Positions 1 to 11,769 of a stretch of DNA of 64,000 nucleotides are shown piece by piece (position 1 is the stretch's first letter; the number at the start of each line of letters is the position of its first letter). Source of the stretch: Empedobacter tilapiae (GTDB lineage Bacteria > Bacteroidota > Bacteroidia > Flavobacteriales > Weeksellaceae); the NCBI RefSeq assembly GCF_004785645.1, contig NZ_SRPE01000010.1, positions 301 through 64,300 on the forward strand, in the 5' to 3' direction. The notes below the pieces were generated by a model. The model saw only the letters and a program-made list of their open reading frames with translations. It searched no databases and was not told the origin of the DNA. Both the position numbers and the translations under genes were made by a program.

Positions 1-89
1 ATATTTTTTAGGTCTCCATTATCAGGCAAGAAAAAATTAAATGTCATTCAATCAGATTTAATAAATTAATAATGAACGAATTTAACAAA

Positions 90-118
90 AAAAAGTAGTC
101 CTTCCTAGACTACTTTTT
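90..118. repeat. Left inverted-repeat site of invertible segment 1
   Basis: Two perfect 11-bp arms (AAAAAGTAGTC at 90-100 and its complement at 108-118) flank a 7-bp centre, CTTCCTA, at 101-107. The 17-bp core at 96-112 recurs in exact inverted orientation at 295-311. The arms-plus-7-bp-centre form is what is known for tyrosine-recombinase crossover sites. The left flank (AATGAACGAATTTAA at 71-85) is also conserved beside the second cassette's left site. Alternative: a bidirectional intrinsic terminator, because the right arm ends in a T-run. Role as a recombination site is inferred. Confidence 0.7.
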
Positions 119-121
119 ATG

Positions 122-153
122 CAAATATATTCTTTTTTTAAAAACAAAGCAAA
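122..153 (-). promoter_or_regulatory. Promoter inside invertible segment 1, facing away from the cassette
   Basis: On the minus strand a -33 box TTTG (150-153) is followed after exactly 20 bp by a -7 box TATATTTG (122-129). This matches the Bacteroidota sigma-factor consensus TTTG / TAnnTTTG. Transcription would start near position 117 and run leftward, away from the gene at 344. If the segment flips about the centres of the two sites, the -7 box moves to about 278-285 and transcription would start near 290, about 54 bases before the ATG. No comparable promoter is visible between the right site and the ATG. Confidence 0.65.
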
Positions 154-292
154 TTACTGAAAAATACTGTCTTAACTCTCTTTTCAAGTATTCTTTTTTT
201 AAAACAAAGGTGTTTTTAATTGCTTATTAAATGAGTAATTAACTAAAAATCACTTTTATAATTTATTGCACTGTAAATCAATACACTGAATA

Positions 293-313
293 AATAGTCT
301 AGGAAGGACTATT
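293..313. repeat. Right inverted-repeat site of invertible segment 1
   Basis: Seven-bp arms AATAGTC (293-299) and GACTATT (307-313) flank the centre TAGGAAG (300-306), which is the exact reverse complement of the centre in the left site. The 17-bp core 295-311 matches 96-112 inverted, giving a segment of about 200 bp between crossover centres. The following 30 bp, including the start of the next gene, are nearly identical to the corresponding stretch at 3213-3256. Confidence 0.7.
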
Positions 314-343
314 CATAAAATAATCACTAAACAATTTAAAATT

Positions 344-1819
344 ATGAAAAAACATTTAGTCATTTTGATGAGCTTATTTTCATCCATATTTCTATTCTCA
401 CAACAAGATATTCGTAAGAGAAGCATTAAAAAAACTTTACAATGTAACCCATCCATTTTCTTATCTCAGACTAACCAGCTTAAATTAGTAGACACATCAA
501 CTAATCCATTCACTTATAATAATATTGGGCTAGCTAATAGTTTTAATTATAATGCAATGGGATATAATCCAGTTGATAGTTTTTTATATGCAATTAAAGT
601 TTCAAATTCAAATGAGATAGTAAAGATTAATCCCACTAATGGTATTGTAACTCCAATTGGTAATATTAATAAATTACCAGTGGCGACTTATATTAATGGA
701 GAGATAGATGATGTAGGAAATTTTTATGTGATGGATAATACATTTACTGATGCTTTATATAAAGTGAATTTAACAACATTAACTTCTACAAAAATAACTT
801 TAAGTAGAAAGATTTATTCTGCTGATTTTGCATTTAATCCTATAAATGGCTTATTATATGGTGTCAATAGTGCTTCAGATACAAATAGCCCTGGTGATTA
901 TGGTAAACTTTATACAATAAACCCACAAACAGGTATTGTTAATTTTATTGGCAGTTCATATGCTGGTAATCAAGTCTATGGAGCTATGATGGGAGTAGTT
1001 ACTGGGGAATTATATGGTTCTGAAAATTCTGGTAATTTTTATCAATTCAATATATTAACAGGTGAAAGAACTCTTATTTCAGGAGCTCCACCAAGTTCTG
1101 GAAATGATGGTGCACATTGTGTTCTTTCTTCTTTTACTTTAGGAATAGATTTATATATTACAAAAACTGATAATAAAACTCAATATATTCCAGGTACTAG
1201 CAATACTTATACTATTGTTGCAGGAAACAATGGTCCTTATGGAACATTAGGAGCCACAGTTTCAGACCCTTTACCTTTAAATATTCCTTCTAGTAATATG
1301 AGCTATAGAGTAACTTCGCTCTCTGGTGGAGCTACAAGTAATGTTATAGGTACTCAAATTGGAGCTATTAATGATAAAGTAAACTTACCTGTAGGAGCAA
1401 AAGTTACCTATGAGGTTATTATTAATGTTCCTTACACATATGTTGGCGATTTGACAAATAAAGCTACAATAAATGCTCCTGTTAATTCGTCGAACGATAT
1501 CAATCTAGCCAATAATACAGCCAGTGATACTGATACAACAACTATTTGTTATAAGCCTGGAAACTTTAATATGAATGGTACACCTACTAGAGTAGGTATT
1601 ACTAATTTACAAAAACAAGTTGGATGGCCAGAAAATATTCCTAATGGATTTATCGCTTTAGAATCTAAATCAACAGGTCTTGTAATCACTAGAGTTCAAA
1701 ACAATACAATGATTACTGAGCCTAAAGAAGGAATGATCATTTATGATATCAATGCAAATTGTGTCAGTCTCTATAATGGGAGTATATGGAAATGTATTAA
1801 ACAAGATTGTAATAATTAA
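344..1819 (+). CDS. Secreted DUF11-type repeat protein, first gene of phase-variable cassette 1
   Basis: The 491-aa product begins with a clear signal peptide (residues 1-19, ending LFLFSQ). Residues about 50-260 look like a beta-propeller-type domain that reads timeline-like features (GLLYGVN, GELYGSEN). A DUF11-like immunoglobulin fold follows at about 262-395 (DLYITKTDN to NNTASDTDT). The last 90 residues carry a module common at the C-terminus of flavobacterial surface proteins (GMIIYDINANCVSLYNG). No type IX sorting domain is obvious. The first 12 residues match those of the gene at 3242, including the DNA upstream. The only recognisable promoter lies in the invertible segment and currently faces the other way. 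The function is probably a surface adhesin or decoration, which is inference. Confidence 0.8.
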   Translation: MKKHLVILMSLFSSIFLFSQQDIRKRSIKKTLQCNPSIFLSQTNQLKLVDTSTNPFTYNNIGLANSFNYNAMGYNPVDSFLYAIKVSNSNEIVKINPTNGIVTPIGNINKLPVATYINGEIDDVGNFYVMDNTFTDALYKVNLTTLTSTKITLSRKIYSADFAFNPINGLLYGVNSASDTNSPGDYGKLYTINPQTGIVNFIGSSYAGNQVYGAMMGVVTGELYGSENSGNFYQFNILTGERTLISGAPPSSGNDGAHCVLSSFTLGIDLYITKTDNKTQYIPGTSNTYTIVAGNNGPYGTLGATVSDPLPLNIPSSNMSYRVTSLSGGATSNVIGTQIGAINDKVNLPVGAKVTYEVIINVPYTYVGDLTNKATINAPVNSSNDINLANNTASDTDTTTICYKPGNFNMNGTPTRVGITNLQKQVGWPENIPNGFIALESKSTGLVITRVQNNTMITEPKEGMIIYDINANCVSLYNGSIWKCIKQDCNN

Positions 1820-1881
1820 TTCATCAAAAATAATAGATCAAAAGTTGTCAAATTTAATTCAATTAACAAAATTTAAAAGGA

Positions 1882-2406
1882 ATGAAAAAAATAATATTTT
1901 TAATTTCAGTTTGTACATTATCGACTGCCACAGCACAAGTATTAATTGGGGATAATCAAATTAATGAAGATCAATCTACAATTTTATATTTTAGCAATAC
2001 TTCTTCAAATACTAACGGAATTATTCTTCCTGCAATAGAAAATGTGACCAATGCATTAGCAGAGTCAACCATTAATAATAATGGAACTTTTTTATTTGAT
2101 AAATCGGATAAGAAAGTAAAAATGTATGAAAAAAATTTATGGGTAACACTTTCTGGTAGTGGTAATACTTCTCAAATTATAAATAATAATTCAGAAGAAC
2201 TAGGAAACGGAGTTATTATAGGAGCGCAAACAACGAATGCAAAAGGAGTTTTAGTATTAGAATCGGATAGCAAAGCAATGGTACTTCCAAAAATAGCAAA
2301 TCCTCACACAACTGTAAAAAGTCCTTATCCTGGTATGATATGTTATGATACGGTGAGTAAAACACTAGCTGTATTTGATGGAAACCATTGGAGTTACTGG
2401 AAATAA
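1882..2406 (+). CDS. Small secreted protein of cassette 1
   Basis: The 174-aa product has a signal peptide (residues 1-18, ending TATAQ). It continues with a short N-terminal region mentioning VLIGDN and ends with the same style of module as its upstream neighbour: an LPKIANP segment followed by PGMICYDTVSKTLAVFDGNHW. In flavobacteria this C-terminal module sits on exported structural proteins. It lies 62 bp after the previous gene and 12 bp before the helix-turn-helix gene, so all three are probably co-transcribed. The exact function is not known to me. Confidence 0.75.
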   Translation: MKKIIFLISVCTLSTATAQVLIGDNQINEDQSTILYFSNTSSNTNGIILPAIENVTNALAESTINNNGTFLFDKSDKKVKMYEKNLWVTLSGSGNTSQIINNNSEELGNGVIIGAQTTNAKGVLVLESDSKAMVLPKIANPHTTVKSPYPGMICYDTVSKTLAVFDGNHWSYWK

Positions 2407-2418
2407 AAATATACAATA

Positions 2419-2856
2419 ATGAATTTCAAAGAAATACATATTGGAACTTTAATCAATCAAGCAGTCATAGAAAATAAAATAGAACTATCTCGTATTTGTA
2501 AATTTATGAAATGTACAGAGCAAGAAGTAAATGAAATGTACAGTATGAACAGTTTGGAACTTGAAGTTGTATTAAAATGGAGTAAATTATTAGAGTATGA
2601 TTTTTTTCGTTTGTATTCTCAACACTTGATTTTATATGCTCCTATTAAAAAAGATGATAGTGAGAAAGTAATCAATAATTATAAATCATCTTTACCCCAA
2701 TTTCGTAAAAATGTTTACACAAAGGAAGTCATAGATTATATTTTAAATAAAATAGACACAGGAGAAATGAAAAAGTCAGAAATAATGGAACGCTATAACA
2801 TCCCAAAAACAACTTTGTATAAATGGATTAGTAAATATAAAAATTCAACCAAATAG
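2419..2856 (+). CDS. Helix-turn-helix protein of cassette 1 (145 aa)
   Basis: The N-terminal half (1-75) has a motif I recall from other flavobacterial genomes (IHIGTLI, WSKLLEYDFFRLYSQHL) without an assigned function. The C-terminal part (about 100-141) is a helix-turn-helix of the IS3 OrfA/transposase type (GEMKKSEIMERYNIPKTTLY). No catalytic DDE residues are present, so it is a DNA-binding protein rather than a transposase. It is closely similar to the protein at 4030-4467, most strongly in the last 50 residues (SLPQFRKNVYTKEVIDYILN). The position at the end of the secreted-protein cassette suggests a regulator of these cassettes or a recombination accessory factor. Both roles are inference. 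Confidence 0.75.
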   Translation: MNFKEIHIGTLINQAVIENKIELSRICKFMKCTEQEVNEMYSMNSLELEVVLKWSKLLEYDFFRLYSQHLILYAPIKKDDSEKVINNYKSSLPQFRKNVYTKEVIDYILNKIDTGEMKKSEIMERYNIPKTTLYKWISKYKNSTK

Positions 2857-2896
2857 ATATCTAATTACTAATTTAGCCTATTCTAATTAACCATTA

Positions 2897-2930
2897 GCTG
2901 CTAATCATTTTCTAGTGATTAGTGGCTTTT
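2897..2930 (+). terminator. Terminator of cassette 1
   Basis: An 11-bp stem (2897-2907 with 2916-2926, two G-T wobbles) with an 8-nt loop is followed by TTTT. The same hairpin and about 40 bp upstream of it recur after the second cassette (4515-4549), showing that the cassette end is duplicated too. Confidence 0.7.
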
Positions 2931-3003
2931 GCTTAAAAAAGAAGATATTACCTAATATTTTCTTTTTTATTAAAGTGCTAATAATGAACGAATTTAATAA
3001 AAA

Positions 3004-3030
3004 AAAAGTAGTCCTAGTTAGACTACTTTT
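3004..3030. repeat. Left inverted-repeat site of invertible segment 2
   Basis: Ten-bp perfect arms (AAAAGTAGTC at 3004-3013 and its complement at 3021-3030) flank the centre CTAGTTA (3014-3020). The arms match those of the first cassette's left site, but the central 7 bp differ (CTAGTTA against CTTCCTA). The 17-bp core 3009-3025 recurs inverted at 3193-3209. The flank AATGAACGAATTTAA at 2983-2997 is shared with cassette 1. Confidence 0.7.
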
Positions 3031-3033
3031 GTA

Positions 3034-3064
3034 CAAAGGTATTCTTTTTCTTTAAAAAAGCAAA
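3034..3064 (-). promoter_or_regulatory. Promoter inside invertible segment 2, facing away from its cassette
   Basis: On the minus strand TTTG (3061-3064) is followed after 19 bp by TACCTTTG (3034-3041), an exact TTTG / TAnnTTTG promoter. It sits at the same distance from its left site as the promoter of segment 1. In this orientation it drives transcription leftward, antisense to cassette 1. After inversion the -7 box would lie at about 3177-3184, with a start near 3189 and a leader of about 53 bases before the ATG at 3242. Confidence 0.65.
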
Positions 3065-3189
3065 TTGTTGAGAAATAATGTTTTAAGAGCATTTATATTT
3101 TTTTATAAAATTAATAATCACGTATTAAATGCTTACTTAATTGTAAATCATAATTATAATACACTATACTGTAAATCAATGTGATGAAC

Positions 3190-3212
3190 AAATAGTCTAA
3201 CTAGGACTATTT
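3190..3212. repeat. Right inverted-repeat site of invertible segment 2
   Basis: Eight-bp arms AAATAGTC (3190-3197) and GACTATTT (3205-3212) flank TAACTAG (3198-3204), the exact reverse complement of this pair's left centre. The core 3193-3209 matches 3009-3025 inverted. The invertible segment is about 185 bp between centres. Confidence 0.7.
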
Positions 3213-3241: not shown

Positions 3242-3991
3242 ATGAAAAAACATTTAATCGTTTTAATGTCTTTATTTTCATCCGTTTCACTATTTTCACA
3301 AGTCGGAATTAATACAGAAAATCCACAAAAAACATTGCATGTAAATGGAGATTTACAATTAACAAAAGAATTTAATGTCGGAGGCAATGCTTCTACTCAA
3401 GGAAGCCCTGGAGTAAGTGGACAAGTTTTGGTTTCAAAAGGTGCTAATAGTGCTCCTGAATGGAAAACATTATCTATTCCCACATTACCCGATTTAGCTA
3501 CAGGAACAGTAATTTCTATAGATGGACAACTTATGATTGCGCAAGAAATCACATTGCAAATGACTGCTGATTATACTAATGCAGGAGCCTCATCAGGACC
3601 AGGTGTAGCAATAGGTAATTTAAATAATGAGATAATTGATAATGAGAATACGTATTTAGGTACTACAACTAGTAATTCTTTTAAAGTGAGTAATGATGGT
3701 ATTTATCATGTAAATATGAATATGCAAATTTCAACTACCAATAATACTTCACCTGTTATAGGTGTATGGGATAACACCGTAGGAAATTGGGTAGCTAGAG
3801 TTAGTGATCAGTTTGTTGCTGCGACTGGAGGATATCAAACATTTACTTTAATAACAGCTATACCTATGTTAGCAAGTCATACCTATTCATTTAGGTTTTT
3901 AAATACAACAAGTGTCACCATTAAACATCTAAGTAGTGGTTTTACTGGAAGTGGTCCTGTCTCACAAGTGACTTTAAAACGTTTGAGATAG
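3242..3991 (+). CDS. Secreted fibre-like protein, structural gene of phase-variable cassette 2
   Basis: The 249-aa product begins with a signal peptide nearly identical to that of the gene at 344 (residues 1-19, ending LFSQ). Residues 20-34 carry the VGINTENPQKTLHV module typical of flavobacterial surface and fibre proteins. A Gly/Ser-rich linker (about 50-75) leads to a beta-rich C-terminal domain (about 100-249, FKVSNDGIYHVNMNMQIS, SHTYSFRFLN) resembling C1q/TNF-like trimeric heads. This is a different structural gene on the same promoter and signal-peptide DNA as cassette 1. The predicted location is the cell surface or periplasm; the ligand is unknown. Confidence 0.78.
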   Translation: MKKHLIVLMSLFSSVSLFSQVGINTENPQKTLHVNGDLQLTKEFNVGGNASTQGSPGVSGQVLVSKGANSAPEWKTLSIPTLPDLATGTVISIDGQLMIAQEITLQMTADYTNAGASSGPGVAIGNLNNEIIDNENTYLGTTTSNSFKVSNDGIYHVNMNMQISTTNNTSPVIGVWDNTVGNWVARVSDQFVAATGGYQTFTLITAIPMLASHTYSFRFLNTTSVTIKHLSSGFTGSGPVSQVTLKRLR

Positions 3992-4029: not shown

Positions 4030-4467
4030 ATGAATTTCAAAATAATTCATATCGGAATATTGATAAAAGAGCTAGTCCAAGAAAGAGAAATTGAGTTGTA
4101 TCGCATCTGTAATTTTATGAAATGTACAGAACAAGAAATAAGTGAAATGTACAATATGGAAAATATGAGTACTGATGTTTTATTGAGATGGAGTAAATTA
4201 TTAGAGTATGATTTTTTTCGTTTGTATTCGCAGCACTTAATTTTATATGCTCCTGTGAGAAATACAAGCTACAAAAAATTTCATGAAAATATACCGTCTT
4301 CTTTACCCCAATTTCGTAAAAATGTTTACACAAAAGAAGTCATAGATTATATTTTAAATAAAATAAAAACAGGTGAAATGAAAAAAACTGAAATAATAGA
4401 ACGCTATAACATCCCAAAAACAACTTTGTATAAATGGATAAGTAAGTATAAAAATTTGGATAAATAA
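4030..4467 (+). CDS. Helix-turn-helix protein of cassette 2 (145 aa)
   Basis: This is a paralogue of the protein at 2419-2856 with the same length and layout: an N-terminal domain with WSKLLEYDFFRLYSQHL and a C-terminal IS3 OrfA-type helix-turn-helix (GEMKKTEIIERYNIPKTTLY). The DNA for the last 50 codons is almost identical in the two genes, while residues 75-95 differ, suggesting recent duplication or gene conversion. It follows the secreted-protein gene by 38 bp and probably shares its transcript. A regulatory role over the cassette promoters or the recombination is inferred. Confidence 0.75.
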   Translation: MNFKIIHIGILIKELVQEREIELYRICNFMKCTEQEISEMYNMENMSTDVLLRWSKLLEYDFFRLYSQHLILYAPVRNTSYKKFHENIPSSLPQFRKNVYTKEVIDYILNKIKTGEMKKTEIIERYNIPKTTLYKWISKYKNLDK

Positions 4468-6873: not shown

Positions 6874-7203
6874 ATGGGAATCACAAAAACGGAGATGTTT
6901 ACAGAAGAGCAAAATCGATTAGCAATAATGTTTAAGGTTTTGGGACATCCTGCTCGTATTGCTATTTTGCAACATATAATCAATCAAAAAGCGTGTATTT
7001 GTAACGACTTAGTCGATGAATTAGGATTAGCGCAAGCAACCATTTCTCAACATTTGAAAGAATTAAAAAATATAGGAATTATACAAGGTTCTGTAGAAGG
7101 AAAGTCTGTTTGTTATTGTATTGAAGAGAGAGTTTGGAAAGAAATACAAAGCGAATTAGTTACATTCTTTCAACAAGATGTGAAAGTTAATCAATGCTGT
7201 TAA
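6874..7203 (+). CDS. arsR: ArsR-family arsenic-responsive repressor
   Basis: The 109-aa product is a winged-helix regulator (about 15-95) with the recognition helix around LAQATISQHLKEL. Cys41 and Cys43 (ACICNDL) sit at the helix 3 position where arsenic-sensing ArsR proteins bind As(III), and the protein ends in a Cys pair (108-109) that may add ligands. Binding of arsenite is known to release such repressors from DNA. Palindromic operators lie before this gene and before the next, and arsC and acr3 follow, so it most likely controls the whole locus. Confidence 0.9.
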   Translation: MGITKTEMFTEEQNRLAIMFKVLGHPARIAILQHIINQKACICNDLVDELGLAQATISQHLKELKNIGIIQGSVEGKSVCYCIEERVWKEIQSELVTFFQQDVKVNQCC

Positions 7204-7227
7204 AGGCATTTTTTTTAATCCAAATAC

Positions 7228-7243
7228 ATCGTAATATTACGAT
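7228..7243. promoter_or_regulatory. Second ArsR operator, before the ars structural genes
   Basis: ATCGTAATATTACGAT is a perfect 16-bp palindrome 30 bp before the DUF6428 gene. It differs by one base from the operator ahead of arsR. It implies a separate regulated promoter for the genes at 7274-9393. Confidence 0.8.
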
Positions 7244-7273
7244 TGATAATATAAATTTAAAAACTCAATTCAT

Positions 7274-7738
7274 ATGACACTTGAACAAATCAAAGAGATA
7301 TTGCCAAATTTAGACAATGTTGAATTTCAATTAGAAGATGGGACATTTGTACCAGAACATTTTCATGTAACAGAAGTAGGACAAATCACAAAAAACTTTA
7401 TTGATTGTGGTGGAACAATAAGAACTGAAAAAGTCGTGAATTTTCAATTATGGAATGCTGACGATTTTGAACACCGTTTAAAACCTATTAAATTACTTCA
7501 TATCATCCAGCTTTCAGAAAGCAAATTAGGAATTGAAAACGGTGAAATAGAAGTAGAATATCAAGCCGAAACAATTGGTAAATATAATTTAGAATTCAAT
7601 GGTAAACATTTTGTTTTAAAGAATAAACAAACGGCATGTTTAGCAGAAGATGCATGTGGAATTCCAAATAAAAAGCCAAAAGTGAAATTATCTGAGATTC
7701 AATCGTCTTGTTGCACACCAAACTCAGGATGTTGTTAA
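7274..7738 (+). CDS. DUF6428 family protein of the arsenic operon
   Basis: The 154-aa product matches the DUF6428 family as I remember it (LEDGTFVPEHFHVTEVG, DCGGTIRTEKVVNFQLW), which often lies between arsR and arsC in Bacteroidota. The C-terminus has additional cysteines (a CLAEDACG segment near 120 and SSCCTPNSGCC at the end) that could bind As(III) or another soft metal. The biochemical role is not established; a metallochaperone role is inference. It is 12 bp from arsC, so they are co-transcribed. Confidence 0.8.
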   Translation: MTLEQIKEILPNLDNVEFQLEDGTFVPEHFHVTEVGQITKNFIDCGGTIRTEKVVNFQLWNADDFEHRLKPIKLLHIIQLSESKLGIENGEIEVEYQAETIGKYNLEFNGKHFVLKNKQTACLAEDACGIPNKKPKVKLSEIQSSCCTPNSGCC

Positions 7739-7750
7739 AAATCAAAAAAA

Positions 7751-8365
7751 ATGTATTCAATATTAAAAGAAAACATAACTAAGTTTCAAAATTTTGAGGC
7801 TATATCTACAGGTAGAAAGGCTGTTTTACAGCCTTTAGTAGAATACATTCAACAAAAAGTAGACAATGGACAAACTGTAAATCTTAACTTTATTTGCACA
7901 CACAATTCACGTCGAAGCCATTTTTCACAAGTTTGGGCACAAATGGCAGCTTTTTATCACCATATTGAAAATGTTTTTTGTTATTCAGGTGGAACAGAAG
8001 AAACGGCGCTATTCTCAAAAGTAGTAGAAACATTAAGTAACCAAGGCTTTCATATTTTCAAAATTGCAGAAAGTACAAATTCAATTTATGTGATTAAGTA
8101 TGACGAAAATTCACTTCCAATTATTGGTTTTTCAAAAAAATATGACAACTCTTTTAATCCTATAAACCAATTTGGAGCAATTATGACTTGTTCACAAGCA
8201 GATGGCGAATGTCCATTTATTGTGGGTGCAGAAAAAAGAATACCTCTAAATTTCGAAGATCCCAAAACTTCAGATGGTACACCACAACAAAATCTTGTTT
8301 ATACACAAAGAAGTACTGAAATAGCAACAGAAATGTTCTATGTTTTTTCGCAAATAACAAAATAA
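7751..8365 (+). CDS. arsC: Arsenate reductase-type protein tyrosine phosphatase family protein
   Basis: The 204-aa product carries the low-molecular-weight phosphatase P-loop CTHNSRRS (Cys49 to Arg55, the CX5R signature) used by thioredoxin-coupled arsenate reductases. A second conserved block, [11 protein letters not shown], lies around residue 145, and [13 protein letters not shown] follows. These proteins reduce arsenate to arsenite in the cytoplasm, which is then exported by the neighbouring Acr3. It is longer than typical ArsC (about 130-140 aa), like other Bacteroidota members. It ends 2 bp before acr3. Confidence 0.85.
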
Positions 8366-8367
8366 GT

Positions 8368-9393
8368 ATGCAACCAAAACTAAAATTTCTAGACAGATAC
8401 CTCACTCTTTGGATATTCCTCGCAATGGCAATCGGTATAGGTTTGAGTTATTTATTTCCATCAATTTCAATCCTTACAAACTCATTGAGTGTCGGTACTA
8501 CTAATATTCCGTTAGCAATAGGATTGATCCTAATGATGTACCCACCTTTGGCAAAAGTAGATTATTCTTTATTACCTCAAGCTTTTAAGGATAAAAAGAT
8601 AATAGGTATATCTTTATTTCTCAATTGGTTTGTTGGTACATTGTTGATGTTTGGCTTAGCTGTTTTGTTTCTAAGAAATGAGCCTGATTATATGACAGGT
8701 TTGATATTAATAGGCTTAGCGAGATGTATTGCAATGGTAATTGTTTGGAGCGATTTAGCCAAAGCAAACCGAGAGTATACAGCAATGTTAGTAGCCTTGA
8801 ATAGTATATTTCAAATACTTTCTTACAGTTTGTTGGTTTGGCTATTCATTAATGTTTTACCTAATCAATTAGGATTAGCTAATTTCAATGTGAATGTATC
8901 AATGAAAGATGTGACAGAAAGTGTGCTAATCTACCTAGGGATTCCCTTTATAGCAGGGTTTGTAAGTCGTTACATATTGATTAAATCAAAAGGTTTGGAA
9001 TGGTACAACAGAAAATTTATTCCTAAAATATCGCCTATAACTTTATATGCTTTATTGTTTACCATTATATTAATGTTCAGTTTGAAAGGAAATAAAATAG
9101 TACAATTACCATTAGATGTCGTAAAAATAGCAATCCCTTTAATCCTCTATTTTGTACTAATGTTTTTTGTAAGCTTCTTTATCAATAAATGGCTAAAAGT
9201 TCCTTACGATAAAAATGCATCAATTGCATTTACAGCAACAGGAAACAACTTCGAATTAGCAATTGCTGTTGCTATCGCAGTATTTGGTATCAATTCTCCG
9301 CAAGCATTTGTAGGTGTTATAGGTCCGTTAGTGGAAGTCCCTATTTTAATTCTTTTGGTAAAAGCAAGTTTATGGCTAAAAGAAAAGTATTAA
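8368..9393 (+). CDS. acr3: ACR3-family arsenite efflux transporter
   Basis: The 341-aa product has about ten membrane helices. Diagnostic Acr3 features are the [19 protein letters not shown] segment, whose cysteine is essential in known Acr3 pumps, and the [17 protein letters not shown] helix. The role is export of As(OH)3 from the cytoplasm. It is the last gene of the operon led by the operator at 7228-7243. Confidence 0.93.
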
Positions 9394-11061: not shown

Positions 11062-11769
11062 TTAACCCACCTCATCATTATCCCAAAAGCTTTTGGAATG
11101 TATTTTTAGAATAGAATGATTAAAGAAATTCTTCAAAAATTTATTTATAAGAGATATTTCTTTGGAGTCACCCACAACATAAACAACAGCTTTATCTTCA
11201 AGTTTTGGAAGATGAAGTTCTAGAAGTTTTATTATATCATCAGGAGATTTAGAATCAAGAAGATAAGAATTTAACGGAAAACTATGATCAATGTCGGGAA
11301 AAATTTGATTGGTATTATTAGTAAAAATAAGACTATAGACATTTTTACTTATCGAAATAGCTCTATTCAGTTCATAAAAATAAGACAGAGAAGTTATGTT
11401 TCCGATTAATAAATATTCTGTTGCTGTATCATCAAGTAACAGTTCTCCCTTAGGTTCTTTAAAGAAAACTTTGTCTCCAAGTTGTACTGATTTTATCCAG
11501 GTTGCACTTTCTCCATTATAATATGTATTAATGGCAAAATCAATAGTGTTAAATACTGGTTCAAAATTCCAAACTGAAAATTTACGAAGCAAGGTTTTTG
11601 TATTAGAAAAAGGATTGGACAAATAGATTTCTGTGGTAAGACCTGCAACATATTTAAGTTTGGAAAGGTTCATACTTTGAATCTTGATATGGTAAATGTG
11701 TTTAGCAATTTGAGCATGGTGAATCACAGTACCACAATAAATATTAGATATTGAGGATTGATCAATCAT
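11062..11769 (-). CDS. Divergent siderophore-interacting / FAD-binding oxidoreductase-like protein
   Basis: The 235-aa product has the layout of the ferredoxin-reductase-like siderophore-interacting proteins. There is an N-terminal FAD-binding beta-barrel with the RKFSVW motif (about 60) followed by a flavin-contact block (TWIKSVQLGDKVFFKEPKG), and a C-terminal NAD(P)-binding domain. It is shorter than the paralogues at 12422-13213 and 27997-28806, and its C-terminus lacks their SYWKAG-AE ending. It probably reduces a ferric chelate or another substrate using NAD(P)H. It is 9 bp downstream of a Crp/Fnr gene on the same strand and is likely co-transcribed with it. Confidence 0.7.
   Translation of the reverse strand: MIDQSSISNIYCGTVIHHAQIAKHIYHIKIQSMNLSKLKYVAGLTTEIYLSNPFSNTKTLLRKFSVWNFEPVFNTIDFAINTYYNGESATWIKSVQLGDKVFFKEPKGELLLDDTATEYLLIGNITSLSYFYELNRAISISKNVYSLIFTNNTNQIFPDIDHSFPLNSYLLDSKSPDDIIKLLELHLPKLEDKAVVYVVGDSKEISLINKFLKNFFNHSILKIHSKSFWDNDEVG

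Follow-up and report, generated by a model that had tools for sequence, protein, structure and literature searches.

Probable promoter switches in Empedobacter tilapiae and other Weeksellaceae are bracketed by site pairs with matching 7-bp centres

The window analysed here is a 64-kb stretch of the Empedobacter tilapiae genome (contig NZ_SRPE01000010.1, C2:301-64300; the genome comprises 3.71 Mb in 27 contigs). It opens on the start of a tyrosine recombinase gene, followed by two short segments, each bracketed by an inverted pair of sites of the form TAGTC-N7-GACTA, where N7 is the central 7 bp. Judged from sequence, the layout matches a tyrosine-recombinase inverton, and the two segments are probably on/off promoter switches for the surface-protein genes beside them. 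The main result, and a strong one, is that N7 is locked within pairs, both at this locus and among relatives. The features of the locus are as follows.

1..47, minus strand: 5' end of the tyrosine recombinase gene (MTFNFFLPDNG..), cut at the window edge, with residues 1-115 encoded at C2:3-347
96..112: left site of pair 1, TAGTC CTTCCTA GACTA, with N7 CTTCCTA at 101-107
113..294: probable invertible segment 1, 182 bp
122..152, minus strand: outward promoter motif of segment 1, TATATTTG at 122-129 and TTG at 150-152, spacing 20
295..311: right site of pair 1, TAGTC TAGGAAG GACTA, with N7 TAGGAAG at 300-306
344..1819, plus strand: secreted/surface-type protein of 491 amino acids (aa), DUF6923 and DUF11, presumed target of switch 1
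1882..2406, plus strand: 174-aa protein, second gene of the presumed operon, without a family match
2419..2856, plus strand: 145-aa helix-turn-helix protein of a kind that recurs after surface genes
3009..3025: left site of pair 2, TAGTC CTAGTTA GACTA, with N7 CTAGTTA at 3014-3020
3026..3192: probable invertible segment 2, 167 bp
3034..3063, minus strand: outward promoter motif of segment 2, TACCTTTG at 3034-3041 and TTG at 3061-3063, spacing 19
3193..3209: right site of pair 2, TAGTC TAACTAG GACTA, with N7 TAACTAG at 3198-3204
3242..3991, plus strand: 249-aa secreted-type protein (MKKHLIVLMSLFSS..QVGINTENPQ), presumed target of switch 2, without a family match
4030..4467, plus strand: second copy of the 145-aa helix-turn-helix protein

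As an earlier note on this DNA had proposed, all four sites share the TAGTC/GACTA core with N7 between, the left sites (AGTAGTC..GACTACT) have other outer arm bases than the right sites (AATAGTC..GACTATT), and the two N7 of a pair are exact reverse complements of each other. These four are the only exact matches to TAGTC-N7-GACTA in the 64 kb. When one mismatch was allowed, there were five matches, compared with a shuffle mean of 1.00 (five were reached by 1 of 100 shuffles); the fifth, at 11319, has no mate. The promoter motif of segment 1 is directed at the recombinase and away from the plus-strand gene, and that of segment 2 is likewise directed away from its plus-strand gene.

The check suggested in the earlier note was run across the E. 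tilapiae genome, where 18 exact sites form nine pairs with starts 158-199 bp apart, and N7 proved identical within all nine. Every one of the 18 sites reads CT-NNN-TA, with variation confined to the middle three bases, and the types found were CTTCCTA (three pairs), CTAGTTA (three), CTTGCTA, CTATCTA and CTATATA (one each). As a control, the 10-base arm pattern was reversed, which gave 8 matches in the same genome; the 14-base pattern that includes CT..TA gave 18 matches (nine per strand), and its reversed control gave none. The idea that the centre is unique to each pair held for the two pairs in the window but failed more generally, with five types among nine pairs here and one type at nine sites in another genome, G144. 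A copy of switch 1 on contig C13 (L045:9203-9377) lacks ~40 bp including the promoter motif, so that its segment measures 141 bp rather than 182 bp, and its N7 is still matched.

Relatives were searched for TAGTC-N7-GACTA, a gap of 145-205, and a second TAGTC-N7-GACTA, with N7 left free. Exact pairs were found in 37 of 320 genomes of the family, spanning 7 of 33 genera, and the reversed pattern in none of the 320. An order-level search found pairs in 14 of 395 genomes, all of them again Weeksellaceae, and there were no exact pairs in 319 genomes from other families of the order. A Mesonia locus (L083) carries a pair with one arm mismatch, which indicates that exact patterns undercount the spread. 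For a pooled set, we admitted loci with up to one arm mismatch per site, collapsed copies with identical segment and site across loci and genomes, and dropped one of 86 candidates (L149:1709, a chance site overlapping a real one), leaving 85 distinct pairs. All statements on N7 matching rest on these 85 and the nine pairs of E. tilapiae.

In the pooled set, N7 was identical within 83 of 85 pairs, whereas shuffling the partners gave 2.95 matches on average and never more than 11 (10000 shuffles); two random loci share an N7 at a frequency of 0.03. Position by position, N7 identity was 0.99-1.00 within pairs and 0.26-0.74 between them. Chance as the origin of the pairs is ruled out by the reversed-pattern control in the family genomes together with these shuffles. 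The flanks show no such excess (outer, 0.446 within versus 0.475 between pairs; inner, 0.426 versus 0.438). Thus, the lock is confined to the arms plus N7, and general homogenisation of inverted repeats, which would make the flanks more alike within pairs than between loci, is ruled out as the cause of the match. A special avoidance of self-complementary centres was also considered, but the effect is weak (mean distance to the own reverse complement of 5.67 versus 5.30, sd 0.20).

The two mismatched pairs look like switches in decay. In genome G009 (CTACTTA and CTTATTA) the segment is 105 bp long, compared with 193 bp in a like-flanked locus of G044, while at G150:C24 (AAATCAA and CAATCAA) the neighbouring recombinase matches only from residue 53, and a related locus in G105 has CAATCAA at both ends. 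The existence of such pairs would be expected if the recombinase tolerated mismatched overlaps, with N7 identity reflecting homogenisation and no choice of partner. IntDOT of CTnDOT is a tyrosine recombinase that tolerates heterology in the overlap, so a need for identical spacers, which the earlier note took as general for these enzymes, is not universal; the enzyme found beside the sites also shares its order of Pfam domains with many Bacteroidota integrases. However, if mismatches were harmless, more than 2 of 85 pairs should show them, and we regard this explanation as unlikely.

The enzyme in question is a protein of 405-412 aa that begins 37-50 bp from one site on contigs C13, C1 and C22 of E. 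tilapiae and at loci of G002 (a genome of the same genus), G009 and G010. The one member scanned against Pfam contains Arm-DNA-bind_5, Phage_int_SAM_5 and Phage_integrase domains (PF00589 at 29.9 bits against a cut-off of 27.1, with PF13102 and PF17293 likewise above cut-off), and five other members are 58-99% identical to it. Invariant across all six are R251, K278, H352, R355, H377 and Y386, which may correspond to the R-K-H-R-H-Y catalytic residues of tyrosine recombinases. A contig scan of the genomes yielded 28 recombinase loci, mainly from Chryseobacterium, Epilithonimonas, Elizabethkingia, Empedobacter and Mesonia. Leaving out L098 (a partial recombinase) and L105 and L106 (distant), a site pair was present at 24 of 25 loci, N7 matched in all 24, and the near site began 54-68 bp upstream of the recombinase start. 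The exception is L080 of Epilithonimonas hungarica, with one site and no mate; here (L080:5935) the lone site lies between the recombinase and a surface-type gene, and the segment is gone. Across the pooled set, 56 of 85 pairs adjoin a recombinase, which is not a genome-wide rate because the loci derive partly from the recombinase search. No match to the recombinase was found on plasmids at E 1e-30, and phages gave five distant matches at 25-30% identity.

The fixed distance to the recombinase argues against the sites being bidirectional terminators or leader hairpins and not recombination sites at all. A site can indeed be read as a hairpin, with AAAAAGTAGTC-N7-GACTACTTTTT forming a stem, a 7-nt loop and a T run. 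Yet the loops of separate hairpins need not match, and here they match in 83 of 85 pairs, which makes this explanation highly improbable. A hairpin role could nonetheless coexist with a role in recombination.

Most segments also carry a promoter motif. An outward TAnnTTTG, the Bacteroides -7 consensus in the available text of PMC4747536, occurs at one end of 78 of 85 segments and at both ends of none; TTG is also present in 64 segments, at a spacing of exactly 19 bp in 56 of them. Among recombinase-linked loci, the promoter faces toward the recombinase at 45 and away at 5 (L051, L078, L083, L093 and L104), with none found at 6, and both orientations are thus represented among relatives when species are compared. 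The motif lies 8-13 bp inside the site (as at window sites 96-112 and 3009-3025), so a transcript could start at or near the site, bearing its arms as a 5' hairpin. At the other end of many segments, by eye, is a TTGATTTACA-like partial palindrome (window ~255-290 and ~3140-3185), possibly a candidate binding site. The helix-turn-helix protein of ~145 aa (MNFKxIHIG..) recurs by switches in several genomes (window 2419-2856 and 4030-4467; L041:12288, L047:17315, L051:5873 and L052:8437). Further along the window, open reading frames at 6874-9393 resemble, by eye, an arsenic operon (ArsR-like regulator, arsenate-reductase-like protein and ACR3-like transporter).

Based upon these observations, we consider it very likely that each pair brackets a phase-variable promoter cassette that is flipped by a tyrosine recombinase, with the centre giving both direction and partner identity. 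Such an enzyme, encoded next to pair 1 and acting in trans on pair 2, would bind the palindromic arms (TAGTC/GACTA with an A/T-rich extension), and strand exchange across the 7-bp centre, the putative overlap, would flip the promoter segment of 167-182 bp so that it points at the surface-protein operon or away from it. Since the arms are symmetric, only the centre can carry direction and partner identity, and since both centres of a pair have the same sequence, inverted, the product would be an inversion. Each locus probably keeps its own centre at both ends because strand exchange re-matches them. With such a centre at each locus, switches that have an enzyme in common but different centres should not cross-recombine. 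Partner specificity via the centre is thus the best reading of these sequences, and orthogonality between pairs is likely, though not absolute.

Several observations weigh against this interpretation. N7 types recur within the E. tilapiae genome (CTTCCTA and CTAGTTA, three pairs each), and G144 has TTGGTTG at nine sites. In G170, a matched pair is retained beside a recombinase copy with three stops. The catalytic residues are putative and rest on known motifs, because no solved structure matched the recombinase profile. Promoter orientation, too, is strongly biased, both in the 45 versus 5 recombinase-linked loci, which span species, and in the satellite loci, where all 28 with a detected promoter have it facing away from the adjacent surface-type gene; in satellites L007, L140, L143, L144, L151 and L156 it would drive transcription toward a different gene, 125-482 bp away. 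With this orientation the surface gene would be OFF in most assembled genomes, which fits with a biased switch. We infer that inversion takes place at the cassettes.

How many switches one enzyme might serve is best seen in genomes G125 and G144. Among the matches listed for G125 there are 12 exact pairs, which use 9 different N7. A single recombinase of the family is intact in this genome and adjoins an AGACCTA pair; a second, distant match holds a stop. When the 12 pairs were aligned, diversity was 0.000 in the arms, 0.461 in N7, 0.074 in the next 30 inner bases and 0.262 across the remaining segment. In G144, the one recombinase lies next to a CAGCATA pair, and nine further promoter-side sites, dispersed, all read TTGGTTG (N7 diversity 0.000 with eight distinct sites aligned). 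A shared enzyme is therefore compatible with distinct or identical centres. In addition, N7 differs in all seven neighbouring couples seen (the window; C15 of E. tilapiae; G002 C1, twice; G002 C9; G214 C8; and G072 C1, ~8 kb apart). G125 and these couples make one enzyme with many independent switches plausible. The earlier note had a single enzyme acting on both window switches; this is made plausible by G125 but is unproven in E. tilapiae, whose seven recombinase matches comprise three full-length copies and four contig-edge pieces.

Alternatively, each recombinase could read its own N7, the centre co-evolving with the enzyme. Across 56 proteins, recombinase identity does correlate with N7 differences, both in the middle three bases (r = -0.23, with 0 of 1000 permutations as low) and in the outer four (r = -0.22, p 0.011). 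This correlation is real but modest, and we put it down to shared descent. Dictation of N7 by the enzyme is contradicted by the nine centres and one intact enzyme of G125, enzymes that are 99% identical adjoin CTTCCTA (C13 of E. tilapiae) and CTTCATA (G002 C9), and equal N7 occurs in 32 comparisons of enzymes only 45-65% identical. We rejected such dictation, and co-evolution of this kind is quite improbable.

The G125 units also have defined edges. When the 12-18 kb regions around eight dispersed units (L190-L197) were aligned, with positions counted from the promoter-side TAGTC, shared sequence started at -7 or -8 in 42 of 56 alignments. In 54 of the 56 it started between -14 and -7 (each couple counted both ways), which is the outer arm edge. 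The recombination site may thus have been a breakpoint as these units spread. At L145 and L147 of this genome, N7 (TGAGTGG and TGGGTTG) resembles reverse-complement forms of the CCACTCA-like centres of paralogs, and the polarity of the centre may have been flipped at both ends.

Why centres differ between loci is a separate matter. One explanation, toward which we lean slightly, is that the differences are unselected: N7 drifts at each locus, inversion keeps the ends identical, and partner specificity is a by-product. The mechanism is the same as that proposed above, and only the reason for the differences changes. In G125, N7 diversity was 0.478 in the gene set used for comparison, compared with 0.381 for fourfold-degenerate sites and 0.430 for third codon positions in the gene beside the switch (11 genes; L191 was left out, having no open frame at the expected place), and N7 divergence exceeded fourfold divergence in 29 of 55 comparisons. 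The G125 centres thus change at about the neutral rate, and selection for orthogonality is not required, though it is possible. Near-neutral change between loci does require efficient re-matching of both ends of a pair. Coupled change is seen in L185 and L186, which differ by one base at both ends in segments that are 94% identical, and likewise between C13 of E. tilapiae (CTTCCTA) and G002 C9 (CTTCATA) with their 99% identical recombinases; inner mismatches between recombining LoxPsym sites are restored to one parental sequence, according to the part of PMC10850332 available to us. Against drift, however, N7 did not drift at all in G144 (0.000 versus 0.156 at fourfold sites, 8 genes), and close neighbours differ in 7 of 7 couples.

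A second explanation, possible but doubtful, is a selected address code, in which loci with equal centres recombine, deleting or inverting the DNA between them, so that different centres are favoured or survive. The seven differing couples would fit if tandem copies that recombine had been lost, but their number is too small for a test, let alone proof. The nine centres of G125 with one intact enzyme point the same way, as does the contrast of N7 (0.461) with the arms and the next 30 bases; at the segment rate, 76.3 N7 differences would be expected in the 55 comparisons, and 181 were found. This appeared to indicate strong diversifying selection, but the fourfold-site control removed most of its force and left little excess. 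G144 shows the opposite, with 0 differences against 14.9 expected (28 comparisons), and its nine dispersed sites share one N7, just as the E. tilapiae genome repeats types. Thus, the statement in the earlier note that drift could not produce the co-variation stands for the match within pairs but not for the difference between pairs.

Among known systems, two traits of an inverton are seen at these loci: inverted sites enclose a promoter in 78 of 85 segments, and a recombinase is linked to a site pair at 24 of the 25 recombinase loci. The enzyme next to the sites belongs to the Phage_integrase family and is not a serine invertase of the Mpi or Hin type (no search was made for serine recombinases in other parts of the genome). 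In the switches of Bacteroides fragilis Tsr19 (BF2766) and other master invertases, a tyrosine recombinase likewise flips local and distant surface-gene promoters with TAnnTTTG inside the segment, but the sites and host order are different, and the available text leaves locus-specific centres undiscussed (PMC4747536). The R64 shufflon (Rci, sfx), as far as the available text describes it, also relies on inversion by a tyrosine recombinase with a 7-bp core between arms; there the core and right arm are conserved, the left arm varies and segments shuffle together, whereas at the loci studied here it is the arms that are conserved and the core that changes from locus to locus (PMC11852207). The cores differ between the window pairs and in the seven couples; the exception, with one core shared by several sites as in a shufflon, is G144, where the loci are dispersed. 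Gut invertons, grouped by inverted-repeat motif, similarly lie near invertases and surface genes and have the Bacteroidota promoter motif, but their invertases are reported to be mostly not regulated by the inverton promoter, whereas 45 of the 50 recombinase-linked loci that have a promoter here point it at the recombinase; the main text of that report, which was available in part, contains none of the words spacer, palindrom and center (PMC11892184). The literature search found no title or abstract opening that describes pair-specific centres in natural invertons, although we do not claim their absence from print.

The closest parallel is engineered. With orthogonal LoxPsym sites, Cre acts on fixed arms and the spacer picks the partner, as proposed here; those spacers, in the portion of the source available, are 8-bp and palindromic, while the natural 7-bp centres are never perfect palindromes (PMC10850332). 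If our reading is true, the sites would be a natural counterpart of the Cre spacer rule used by engineers, and would offer dozens of ready-made matched site pairs with related recombinases for testing. They would also raise the question of what lets two 7-bp sequences at separate places change in step, and at close to the neutral rate. Tentatively, and short of an even chance in our view, this may be a natural multiplexed address system, in which fixed palindromic arms, read by the enzyme, are combined with a 7-bp overlap that encodes direction and locus identity, one recombinase serves a dozen independent promoter switches in a dispersed family of surface proteins, and neighbours stay distinct through divergence or loss. 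The literature search turned up no study of surface-protein switches in the Weeksellaceae, of which these pairs indicate that there are many.

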